Part shown: positions 7,383-20,883 of the stretch, one piece after another
How the letters are laid out: each line of letters starts with the position of its first letter
Position numbering within the stretch: the first letter of the stretch is position 1
DNA from: a virus
DNA length: 21,205 bases
Strand: one strand, 5' to 3'
Virus record (IMG/VR): IMGVR_UViG_3300009155_000323
Location: 1 to 21,205 of that record
Made by a program: the position numbers and the translations under genes
Notes under the pieces: generated by a model
What the model was told of the DNA's origin: nothing
Databases searched by the model: none
Seen by the model: the letters and a program-made list of their open reading frames with translations, nothing else

Positions 7383-7390
7383 TATAAATA
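7383..7390 (+). promoter_or_regulatory. T4-type late promoter for the holin cassette
   Basis: Exact TATAAATA, the T4 late promoter box read by RNA polymerase with gp55 and gp33 and activated by the gp45 clamp. The ATG of the first gene is 21 bases downstream and has its own ribosome site (GGAG), so this late mRNA has an ordinary short leader. Confidence 0.8.
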
Positions 7391-7411: not shown

Positions 7412-8002
7412 ATGGATTATTCTAAAATATTTGAACTTTCAACTTATTCAGTAGCAGGATTATTGGGATTTGGCTACGGACTTAAAAAATTTTTAAAGTT
7501 TAATAATAATAAAGTTGATAATTTTAATGAAATCCATACTGAAATCCATGAACTGCTCACAGAAATAAGATTAACTGGTACTGCCATGCGCGCAACAATT
7601 CTTCAATTTCATAATGGAGAATATTTTATGGATGGCATATCCATGCGCAAGTTTTCAATAACTCATGAGTCTTCCCACCGTGGATATATCTCACAAGTAA
7701 ATAAATTTAAAAATGTTCTTTGCTCTCTCTTTATTCCACTGTTGAACAGAGTGGTGGACAATAAACCATTGATATTTTCCGTTGAGGCAATGTCGGAAAG
7801 TTATGCAAAACATTTCTTTGAAGATGAAAATGTTTCACATTATGCTTGCCTTCCTTTAAAAAATAAAGGAATCAATGTTGGATTTATATTGCTACAATGG
7901 CACAAAGATTTTAAACCAGAAGTAGCCGAGCACAACATAATGGATCACTTTGAATCTATTCGCAACTCCATAGAATTACAACTTTCACATCAAAAGAATT
8001 GA
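7412..8002 (+). CDS. GAF-like protein with N-terminal membrane segment
   Basis: The protein has 196 residues. Residues 9-30 (STYSVAGLLGFGYGLKKFL) form a short hydrophobic segment that may anchor it in the membrane. A helical linker follows (EIHTEIHELLTEIRLTGTAMRA), then a soluble domain with ATILQFHNGEYFMDG and, near the end, CLPLKNKGINVGFILLQW. The last segment is typical of GAF-type sensor folds (hydrophobic strand, Pro-Leu, Gly, strand). No nucleotide-cyclase or kinase motif is present. The ribosome site is GGAG 7-8 bases before the ATG. It is first in a late unit with a holin-like gene 8 bases downstream, so a role in lysis or envelope sensing is plausible but unproven. Confidence 0.7.
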   Translation: MDYSKIFELSTYSVAGLLGFGYGLKKFLKFNNNKVDNFNEIHTEIHELLTEIRLTGTAMRATILQFHNGEYFMDGISMRKFSITHESSHRGYISQVNKFKNVLCSLFIPLLNRVVDNKPLIFSVEAMSESYAKHFFEDENVSHYACLPLKNKGINVGFILLQWHKDFKPEVAEHNIMDHFESIRNSIELQLSHQKN

Positions 8003-8010
8003 GGTAAATT

Positions 8011-8445
8011 ATGTTTTCAGCCGAGTTAATTAGTTTAGTTGGTGGTGGGTTTACTGGATTTCTTTTTAAGTATCTTGCACAAAAAAGTGCAGACCAAAAA
8101 GAATTATTTCAACAATTAATACAATCTAATAAACAAACTACAGACAATCAAAACCAAGCCGCTCAAAGAGTTCCCCTTGATACTGGAAGAGTTGTAAGAC
8201 AAATAATTGTACTCACAGTATTGTTTGGAGCTTTTGCTGCCCCATTTATTCTTCCATTCTTTGGAGTTCCAACCTTTGTTGAAGTTGATGTAAAGAATCC
8301 AGAATTTTTGTTTGGATTGATTCCCGCAACTGCTAAAAAAGCATTTGTAGAAATTAATGGGTTTTTCTGGACATCAGAAAATAGAGAAGTTCTTTTGAGC
8401 ATTGTTGGATTCTATTTTGGAACCTCTGCCGCAAACAACAAGTAA
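8011..8445 (+). CDS. Probable holin (three-segment membrane protein)
   Basis: The protein has 144 residues with an N-terminal hydrophobic stretch (AELISLVGGGFTGFLFKYL), a polar Gln/Asn-rich helix, a long hydrophobic segment (QIIVLTVLFGAFAAPFILPF) and a C-terminal hydrophobic end (LLSIVGFYFGTSAA). The plan, with RVVRQ before the central segment and GFYFG at the end, resembles the 3TM holin family described from gene transfer agents and many phages. Such proteins make membrane holes at the end of infection. The ribosome site is GAGGT 7 bases before the ATG, immediately after the previous stop. No endolysin is adjacent. Another membrane-protein role cannot be excluded. Confidence 0.7.
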   Translation: MFSAELISLVGGGFTGFLFKYLAQKSADQKELFQQLIQSNKQTTDNQNQAAQRVPLDTGRVVRQIIVLTVLFGAFAAPFILPFFGVPTFVEVDVKNPEFLFGLIPATAKKAFVEINGFFWTSENREVLLSIVGFYFGTSAANNK

Positions 8446-8458
8446 TAGGAGCACTAAT

Positions 8459-8767
8459 ATGAAAATTTTAAAACCACTTCTTTTGACAATTATTCTTGCT
8501 GGATGCTCTAATACTCCTGTCATCGTACCAGACACAACAGCTGATAATGTAATAATGTTGCAGATTAAAGATCAAATTGCTCAATCGGGAACTACAAAAG
8601 CATCATATGGATGGTTGTTTTGGTATTGTCCTATTGCTATTATTGGATTGATGTGGGGATATAGAAATTTGATAAAAAAACCCATAAATTGCCTTGAAGA
8701 AGAGCCAAATTCAACTTCAGTATCAAAAAATATTACTTCTGTGCCCGTCGAAGAGCCAAAGATTTAA
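8459..8767 (+). CDS. Small lipoprotein with an internal membrane segment (spanin-like?)
   Basis: The protein has 102 residues. The start is ATG 8459, with AGGAG 7 bases upstream; an earlier in-frame ATG at 8402 lies inside the holin gene and is rejected. The N-terminus is a lipoprotein signal peptide (MKILKPLLLTIILAGC), with lipobox LAGC and the lipidated Cys at residue 16. A second hydrophobic segment (WLFWYCPIAIIGLMWGY) lies near residues 51-67, followed by a Pro/Ser/Glu-rich tail. A lipoprotein directly after a holin suggests an outer-membrane spanin, but spanins normally lack the second membrane segment, so the function is open. Confidence 0.7.
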   Translation: MKILKPLLLTIILAGCSNTPVIVPDTTADNVIMLQIKDQIAQSGTTKASYGWLFWYCPIAIIGLMWGYRNLIKKPINCLEEEPNSTSVSKNITSVPVEEPKI

Positions 8768-8775
8768 TATAAATA
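8768..8775 (+). promoter_or_regulatory. T4-type late promoter for the 558-residue fibre
   Basis: Exact TATAAATA beginning on the base after the TAA stop of the lipoprotein gene. It is followed by 29 bases with a ribosome site (AAGGA about 8 bases before the ATG at 8805). Confidence 0.8.
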
Positions 8776-8804: not shown

Positions 8805-10481
8805 ATGGGCGTAAAACAATCGATGAATACATTCTTCAGTGCCATGCAAGGACAAAACAGTTCTGGTTATGGAGGAAGACTTGTAAACACTCCAATGGGA
8901 CCATTCCGTTGGGATGACAATTTTAATATGTGGATTAACGTCAACAATGGAATGGCATTGAGCAATATTTCGTTTCAAGACGAATTTGCCAGTATGATGG
9001 ACTACGACACTCTTGAAGGTGGAGGTGATACCACAATAATTACTGCTACTGGTGTTTCTTATTTTATTCCTAATGTATCCGCAACTCTATTTGATTATAC
9101 CACTCTAACTCTTGGAAGCTATGCTACTCTTTCCAGAGGTTCAACTTATGGTTCGTTTGTTGGTTCATGTGGTTATATTACAAATCCTTCTGGAGTAACT
9201 GCTCCAAAATTTGAATATGATAGTATAACTGGACAACTTAAAGGTTTGTTAATTGAACCGGCTTCTACAAATATTGTAATTGGAACAAATATAAATGCTA
9301 TACCTGCATGGTCAAATACATTTTTGGCTGGCGGTGGAGCTAATATCAATTCCGCAGATGAAAATGGTGCAGGAGGACCAGAAAATACAAATATTACAAG
9401 ATCTCCAAGTGGTATTATAAATACTGCTGCAAATGATGGAAACGCTGTTGTTGCTGGTGACGGTTCTTCAAATTCTACTGCAATTAGAAGTAGGACAATT
9501 ACTGCAGAGTCTGGTAGTACTTATTATAATCTTAGCATTTGGGCTAAAAATGGATATACACTATCTGGATTAGGTTTTGCTGGACAAAATTATATTAGAA
9601 TGTATGCCGGTGATTCTACATTAACCAATTATGCATATTCTTCATTCAATCTTGTTACAGGTGCTCTAGAAACTTCAGGTTTAGTAGGTTCTGGATATTC
9701 TATGGCAGCATCGTTTATAGAAGGATACACAACAGGTGGAACAGGTTATAACTACTATAGATGTAGTATGACCTTCCAAAAGCCAGCTGCAGATACTACT
9801 TTAAGAGTTGGATTTGCACCCGGAATAACTCAAACTAATTCAAATGGTTATATTTTTGTGTGGGGACCACAATGCGAAAGAGTCTTTAATTATACTGATG
9901 CTTTAGGTAACAATGTTGTTCCAAGAAGACCTTCTTCATATATAAAAATTCCAACTGGTGGTGGTGCAGCCACAACTCGTCCAGCGGATTTATTTAATAT
10001 CAGCGGAGCATCATTCACCTCATTCTATAACCCATATCAATCCACCATCAGTCTCACCTATACCAAGGGCGATCCATATTATCCAAGATCATATCTTGTC
10101 TTGGGACCAACCGGACCTACCAGCCCAAACATTGCCATCGTAGACTATGTTGGTGGAAATACATATACCAATTATTTTGGTGTTTCGGGAGCAAGTTTCA
10201 ATTATACACTAACTCCAGCAGGATTAAGTTCTGGAACATTCACCTTTGTAGTTGGTTATTGCGGTGCATCAGGTGCAATGGCAATGAACACCTATGGAGT
10301 TACCGGATTCACAATAACTGGAAACACTCTACCCCCCGTAGACCAATTAAGTGTAACCAGACTCGGTACTGGCGGTGCATTCTATCTACAAAATATCAGA
10401 TATTGGAATACAGTAGTTGGAAATAATGCAATATCCGGTATTGCCCAAGGATTCACTGTAGGAAATACCTATACTGCTTAA
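8805..10481 (+). CDS. Tail fibre or receptor-binding structural protein
   Basis: The protein has 558 residues, rich in Ser, Thr, Gly and Asn and mostly beta strand. The N-terminus has a small Trp-rich module (TPMGPFRWDDNFNMWINVNNG). Residues about 150-380 match a module common in phage tail fibres: it opens GLLIEPASTN, has SIWAKNGY in the middle, then YYRCSMTF and VWGPQCERV, and closes with a TTRPADLF segment. This resembles a carbohydrate-binding jelly-roll domain. The C-terminal 170 residues look like a second beta-sandwich of lectin type. It is expressed from its own late promoter and ends at a strong terminator. The exact host target cannot be read from sequence. Confidence 0.8.
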   Translation: MGVKQSMNTFFSAMQGQNSSGYGGRLVNTPMGPFRWDDNFNMWINVNNGMALSNISFQDEFASMMDYDTLEGGGDTTIITATGVSYFIPNVSATLFDYTTLTLGSYATLSRGSTYGSFVGSCGYITNPSGVTAPKFEYDSITGQLKGLLIEPASTNIVIGTNINAIPAWSNTFLAGGGANINSADENGAGGPENTNITRSPSGIINTAANDGNAVVAGDGSSNSTAIRSRTITAESGSTYYNLSIWAKNGYTLSGLGFAGQNYIRMYAGDSTLTNYAYSSFNLVTGALETSGLVGSGYSMAASFIEGYTTGGTGYNYYRCSMTFQKPAADTTLRVGFAPGITQTNSNGYIFVWGPQCERVFNYTDALGNNVVPRRPSSYIKIPTGGGAATTRPADLFNISGASFTSFYNPYQSTISLTYTKGDPYYPRSYLVLGPTGPTSPNIAIVDYVGGNTYTNYFGVSGASFNYTLTPAGLSSGTFTFVVGYCGASGAMAMNTYGVTGFTITGNTLPPVDQLSVTRLGTGGAFYLQNIRYWNTVVGNNAISGIAQGFTVGNTYTA

Positions 10482-20574: not shown

Positions 20575-20602
20575 ATATTATCTCCAATATCAAATAAGTC
20601 AA
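20575..20602 (-). promoter_or_regulatory. Sigma70-like promoter for the 45-44-62-regA unit, probably leaderless
   Basis: Minus strand: -35 TTGACT (20602-20597), 16 bases, -10 TAATAT (20580-20575), 6 bases (ACAGTC), then ATG 20568. The -35 includes the TGA stop of the upstream gene. The -10 is the weakest of the set (four of six consensus positions), but the spacings are identical to the others. Confidence 0.55.
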
Positions 20603-20883
20603 ATAGAAACCCACTGATATCCATTTCCATCATAAAAATATGTGTAGACTACTGTTGAATCTGAAATCCAAAGTTGATTCTCTTTTGGATTGGCTGGTGG
20701 ATTTGTCCCACGGTATTGTTCAGTAGCATTTACATATGTCCACGAAGTAGGGGATTGCAGTGGACTTTTATTGGTTGTTACATTAGATTTATAAAATTTA
20801 CCTTGGTGAATAACAATATCACCATTATTATAAAGAACTGGGGTTCCTTGCTTATTTTTAAATTTATAATTGCCCTTAAACAT
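20599..20883 (-). CDS. Small late protein with carbohydrate-binding-like module
   Basis: The protein has 94 residues. The first half reads YNNGDIVIHQGKFYKSN, then a Thr/Ser/Pro loop and SWTYV, the pattern of small chitin-binding-type (CBM5/12-like) modules. The second half (NPPANPKENQLWIS, then TVVYTYFYDGNGYQWVSI) resembles the Trp-rich modules in the fibre genes of this window. It is therefore probably a virion or fibre-tip protein. The ATG at 20883 has no Shine-Dalgarno; an exact late promoter lies 9 bases upstream. It stands as a single late gene between early genes 46 and 45. The binding specificity is unknown. Confidence 0.75.
   Translation of the reverse strand: MFKGNYKFKNKQGTPVLYNNGDIVIHQGKFYKSNVTTNKSPLQSPTSWTYVNATEQYRGTNPPANPKENQLWISDSTVVYTYFYDGNGYQWVSI

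Follow-up and report, generated by a model that had tools for sequence, protein, structure and literature searches.

A late three-gene unit with a membrane-anchored GAF-fold protein in an uncultured T4-like phage lineage, and its possible part in lysis

The window analyzed here is a viral fragment of 21,205 bases that carries T4-type replication genes (helicase, UvsX, DNA polymerase, clamp, clamp loader, and RegA) and, flanked by minus-strand blocks, a block of three genes on the plus strand. Gene 1 (7412–8002, +), delineated by its ORF, an AlphaFold2 model, and conservation, encodes a 196-aa protein predicted to be membrane anchored and to have a GAF fold; gene 2 (8011–8445, +), delineated by its ORF and hydrophobicity, encodes a 144-aa membrane protein (phrog_38283 in PHROGs, a family of unknown function) that is no more than a candidate holin; and gene 3 (8459–8767, +) encodes a 102-aa lipoprotein, recognized by its ORF and its lipobox, LAGC. 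Genes 1 and 2 are separated by 8 bases and genes 2 and 3 by 13, and a Shine-Dalgarno-like sequence precedes each of the three. (A TTG at 8402 was also considered as the start of gene 3 but lies too early; the ATG at 8459, behind AGGAG, is the true start.) A gene for a tail protein (8805–10481, +; phrog_5939 in PHROGs) follows and stands outside the three-gene unit. In relatives, this slot between the lipoprotein gene and dUTPase is variable, being either empty or occupied by tail proteins of very different lengths. Elsewhere in the window, a 94-aa ORF (20599–20883) has a weak match, below the cut-off, to a carbohydrate-binding module (CBM_5_12, E 1e-4). The lineage has no close relative among GenBank phages (~50,000 phage records), Pfam, PHROGs, and PDB sequence searches with the three proteins returned nothing informative, and no relatives of the gene 1 GAF protein were found in bacterial genomes.

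Relatives of the unit were collected by a protein-guided scan, which yielded 80 viral loci, and by a second, alignment-based scan, which yielded another 80 on partly shared contigs; removal of duplicates left 88 distinct first genes. Gene 2 lies downstream on the same strand in 83 of these 88 and the lipoprotein gene in 80, two of the losses being contig ends (L138 and L033). The relatives fall into two genomic contexts: in group 1, which includes the window, the three genes are adjacent and sit between DNA polymerase/MazG-like genes and dUTPase; in group 2, located near ribonucleotide reductase, gene 1 and the gene 2–gene 3 pair are split by 2 to 5 kb of other same-strand genes. Gene order is kept in both. 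Because the linkage recurs at this frequency and in two different contexts, the association of the three genes exceeds chance, and the initial annotation's expectation that gene 1 would accompany the putative holin elsewhere is borne out. Insertions of ~610 to 650 bases, possibly mobile genes, occur between genes 2 and 3 at one locus (L018) and between genes 1 and 2 at another (L037).

Transcription of the unit appears to be late. An exact match to the T4-type late promoter, TATAAATA, lies at 7383–7390 (+), ~22 bases upstream of the gene 1 ATG, and the same sequence is found in 47 of 59 distinct upstream regions of group 1 relatives, against a background of ~0.009 per stretch; upstream of genes 2 and 3 in the same relatives, it was found in none. 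Present before gene 1 and absent before its two followers, the promoter makes genes 1 to 3 look like a single late transcription unit. The next TATAAATA, again an exact match (8768–8775, +), stands ahead of the tail-protein gene and therefore marks the end of the unit. The original description of three late genes packed together is thus accurate in its ORFs, spacing, and promoter.

The gene 1 product was modeled using AlphaFold2 with 39 relatives (pLDDT 86.3). Its layout comprises a helix at residues 3 to 32, a second helix at residues 38 to 56, and an alpha/beta GAF domain at residues ~37 to 196, and it resembles many solved GAF domains in the PDB (Z ~16, rmsd 2.6, ~145 residues aligned); at the level of the predicted structure, this confirms the GAF-like domain that had been proposed from sequence. 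The window protein itself has no match to the Pfam GAF family (PF01590), i.e., it falls below the curated cut-off, and 6 of 23 family members match it weakly (best E 0.009); it is the sole Pfam family matched by several members. The fold is common to gene 1 and the GAF superfamily, but the gene 1 family has a near-invariant motif of its own (QFHNGEYFMDGxSMRKxSxTHES) and lacks an output enzyme domain; conservation of the HNG/THES residues suggests a putative ligand site.

The membrane segment that the initial annotation assigned to gene 1 corresponds to a single N-terminal helix (residues 3 to 32 in the model) and is weakly hydrophobic, with a 19-residue mean of 1.12 in the window and of 1.1 to 2.2 in relatives. 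It is preceded by 5 residues in the window protein and by up to ~18 in relatives, mostly acidic or neutral. In most relatives, the flank before the helix is neutral or negative and that after it mostly positive; from these charges and the positive-inside rule, which is an indication and not a proof, we infer that the GAF domain is probably cytoplasmic.

The holin label first given to gene 2 is not confirmed. Of the three membrane segments in the earlier description, one is strongly hydrophobic (residues 65 to 83, mean 2.4), the N-terminal one is weak (1.45), and the C-terminal one is weaker still. It matches no holin family above threshold in Pfam or PHROGs (PF11351 and phrog_3427 included), and its comparison with the holin of Nonlabens phage P12024S is not significant. 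What it has in common with the three-helix holins of those two families is that it is a small late membrane protein with a roughly similar order of segments.

In gene 3, both the lipobox and the second membrane segment, as originally described, are present and are conserved in 78 of 78 distinct relatives. The protein consists of the lipobox LAGC, a linker of ~30 residues, one weak membrane helix, and a mostly basic, cytoplasmic-type tail; the distance from the lipobox cysteine to the helix is 29 to 36 residues in most relatives, and the window copy has no cysteine between the lipid anchor and the helix. Unimolecular spanins, such as T1 gp11, are likewise built from a lipobox and a transmembrane helix downstream of it. 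The characterization of this lipoprotein as odd and unlike classical spanins therefore holds only in part: apart from a linker that seems too short, it is laid out like a unimolecular spanin. In the shortest published two-component spanin pair, the periplasmic residues sum to 62 (PMC6139136), about twice the linker of gene 3, which is probably too short to span the periplasm; no sequence similarity to unimolecular spanins was detected. Membership of gene 3 among simple unimolecular spanins was ruled out by this linker length.

Genes 2 and 3 vary together. Their identity matrices correlate at r 0.92 and 0.83 in the two groups, as against r 0.30 (group 1) and 0.59 (group 2) for genes 1 and 2. 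The window gene 2 is 85% identical to a group 2 copy (L038) and 62% identical to a group 1 copy (L001), and for gene 1 the relationship is reversed (44% to L038 and 76% to L001). These correlations and identities indicate that genes 2 and 3 travel as a pair, and among relatives the two usually share an ATGA overlap. Group 1 contains at least two alleles of the pair, each swapped as one block beneath GAF genes that are alike; the window, which belongs to type A, has an allele that resembles group 2. The idea of a fixed pair of sensor and holin was consequently rejected in that form: gene 2 and the lipoprotein gene change hands jointly, largely independently of the GAF gene. In some relatives, genes 2 and 3 are replaced by a single lipoprotein with a coiled-coil-like region of ~140 residues and C-terminal membrane helices; long enough to bridge the periplasm, it is possibly a spanin fused to a membrane protein. 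Such replacement loci (L079:10027–10908, L073:11386–12288, and L264 to L271) encode three C-terminal hydrophobic segments.

Searches of a viral structure library matched the gene 1 model to annotated T holins (E 7e-6 to 4e-5), and we therefore modeled the T4 holin T as well, from T relatives. The best matches of the T model are T's own crystal structures (6px4, 6psk, and 6pxe; Z ~26), and, among the matches listed, the remaining 47 entries are all GAF domains (Z 13.4 to 14.7); in the viral library, further T holins come first, followed by phage GAF proteins that are also among the matches of the gene 1 model. Judged from these matches of the model, the periplasmic domain of T4 holin T, by which T is bound by the antiholin RI (PMC11413866), is a GAF fold. 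We found no mention of this fold for T in the open literature; it may be stated in the paper on the T structure (Krieger et al. 2020). T can form holes without its globular domain, to which a regulatory role is ascribed, but needs an N-terminal cytoplasmic amphipathic helix to do so (PMC12162936).

As modeled, gene 1 and the class III holin T of T4 and T5 (PF11031) have the same elements in the same order (an N-terminal membrane helix, a connecting helix, and a C-terminal GAF fold), and their structural neighbors overlap. They differ in that gene 1 lacks the N-terminal amphipathic helix, that its GAF domain is probably cytoplasmic and that of T periplasmic, that T lacks the HNGEYFMDG motif, and that gene 1 has a separate small membrane protein encoded alongside. 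PF11031 matches neither gene 1 nor any protein in 20 records with the three-gene unit. Profile comparisons between the gene 1 family and T (three comparisons plus decoys) give E values of ~0.03 to 0.16, not separated from unrelated-family decoys; a GAF-family profile ranks at the top of 34 comparisons, yet it too is not separated from decoys. Homology proven by sequence was thus not achieved. GAF is a common fold, so separate origins are conceivable, and T and the gene 1 protein could have reached it separately; the modeled resemblance of gene 1 to T is one of fold and does not prove it a T holin.

By sequence, gene 1 is homologous to gp12 of Nonlabens phage P12024S and to other phage TM-GAF proteins, which have the same architecture at 17 to 23% identity. 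P12024S gp12 belongs to an apparent lysis cassette (GAF gp12, M15 peptidase, phrog_3427 holin), whereas the window lineage has the 144-aa protein and the lipoprotein with no adjoining endolysin. Contig L163 has the order GAF (87% identical to gp12), two-helix protein, Amidase_2; Polaribacter phage P12002L has a two-helix protein, a 207-aa GAF-like protein (presumed from its unique length to be the structural match), and an M15 peptidase; and Bacteroides phage BS-TP1 has a GAF gene, two small genes, and Amidase_3, three genes downstream. In T5, the T homologue is directly upstream of the endolysin. In Microcystis phages, the related GAF genes have structural or metabolic genes on either side, and no annotated lysis gene is near them. 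A comparison of L085:4548–4931 with L163:6928–7329 shows that two phages whose GAF proteins are 87% identical encode endolysins of different families (M15 peptidase and amidase) just downstream.

The initial annotation's remark that no endolysin is present agrees with the Pfam and PHROGs results for this 21-kb fragment, in which none of the ORFs scanned matches an endolysin family. Among 12 large records, 2 have a PF00959 lysozyme above the cut-off (homologues of one such ORF occur in 4 of 20), and one M15-like ORF falls below it. No endolysin adjoins the unit in this lineage, the candidates lying at least 8 kb away.

We tentatively read the three genes of this uncultured T4-like lineage as a late, envelope-directed unit for the lysis step whose regulator is the GAF protein, and give this reading close to an even chance. 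The gene 1 product would be an inner-membrane protein of T-like architecture, with a single N-terminal helix and a GAF-fold domain, that regulates membrane opening, by holding it back or by triggering it, and does not form the hole; a regulatory role is suggested by the absence of a T-type amphipathic helix and by the probably cytoplasmic position of the GAF domain. The 144-aa protein and the lipoprotein would be a co-inherited envelope pair, probably holin-like and outer-membrane-directed partners, respectively. The lysis-step reading draws on the GAF fold common to gene 1 and T, whose globular domain is regulatory (PMC12162936, PMC11413866), on the position of TM-GAF proteins beside or close to endolysins in unrelated phages, and on the three-gene linkage in two contexts, the late promoter, and the co-variation of genes 2 and 3. 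It draws, too, on the replacement of these two genes in some relatives by a lipoprotein–coiled-coil–membrane protein and on the lack of PF11031 in the 20 unit-bearing records. Against it stand the missing sequence-level homology to T, the commonness of the GAF fold, the lack of an endolysin beside the unit, the 2- to 5-kb separation in group 2, the weak agreement between genes 1 and 2 (r 0.30), and the Microcystis contexts.

The same observations bear on other readings. The helix-plus-GAF architecture as in T, the similar proteins directly upstream of endolysins (like T in T5), and the lack of any PF11031 protein in the unit-bearing records would also fit a GAF protein that is itself a T-type, class III holin, the 144-aa protein then being an antiholin, a second holin, or a spanin partner. 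We consider this unlikely: T requires its N-terminal amphipathic helix (PMC12162936), and here some 5 to 18 mostly acidic or neutral residues precede a weakly hydrophobic membrane helix whose flanking charges suggest the orientation opposite to that of T. Nor do we find it probable that genes 2 and 3 encode an envelope-spanning, spanin-type complex in place of a holin, with the GAF gene a mere neighbor; their tight co-variation and usual ATGA overlap, the long replacement lipoprotein with its coiled-coil-like region and C-terminal membrane helices, and the lack of a holin-family match for gene 2 are all consistent with such a pair, but the linker is short even against the shortest published pair (PMC6139136), and linkage to the GAF gene in 83 of 88 distinct relatives argues that the latter is no bystander. 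More doubtful still is a membrane role outside lysis, e.g., in superinfection exclusion or late membrane remodeling, for which the lack of an adjoining endolysin in the window lineage and the placement of the Microcystis phage relatives could be cited, since other phages repeatedly have TM-GAF proteins beside or close to their endolysins and the unit has a late promoter.

The observation of broadest reach is that the T4 holin, as modeled, carries a GAF-fold regulatory domain in a layout common to many phage proteins. Lysis inhibition is a textbook example of how a virus, T4, senses its environment, and the T4 holin domain that receives the antiholin would have the fold of a sensor domain. By extension, GAF domains might be a common regulator of phage lysis, with T of T4 and T5 as a periplasmic branch read by an antiholin and the window lineage as a branch in which a cytoplasmic sensor of cell state gates a separate membrane-opening protein; we regard this generalization as speculative and rather improbable. 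The many TM-GAF proteins, several of them beside endolysins, offer natural variants for studying the signals that time lysis. Should the window unit be a lysis unit, this T4-like lineage would rely on a lysis system that goes unrecognized by current family libraries.

One further feature concerns the endolysin candidates. Lysozyme- or peptidase-like ORFs in four contigs (L252, L253, L254, and L255) begin with an MKSFxxF-like header, so delivery in the virion may apply to them. The same header is found on many neighbors of the unit in group 2 and is reminiscent of T4 capsid-targeting sequences.
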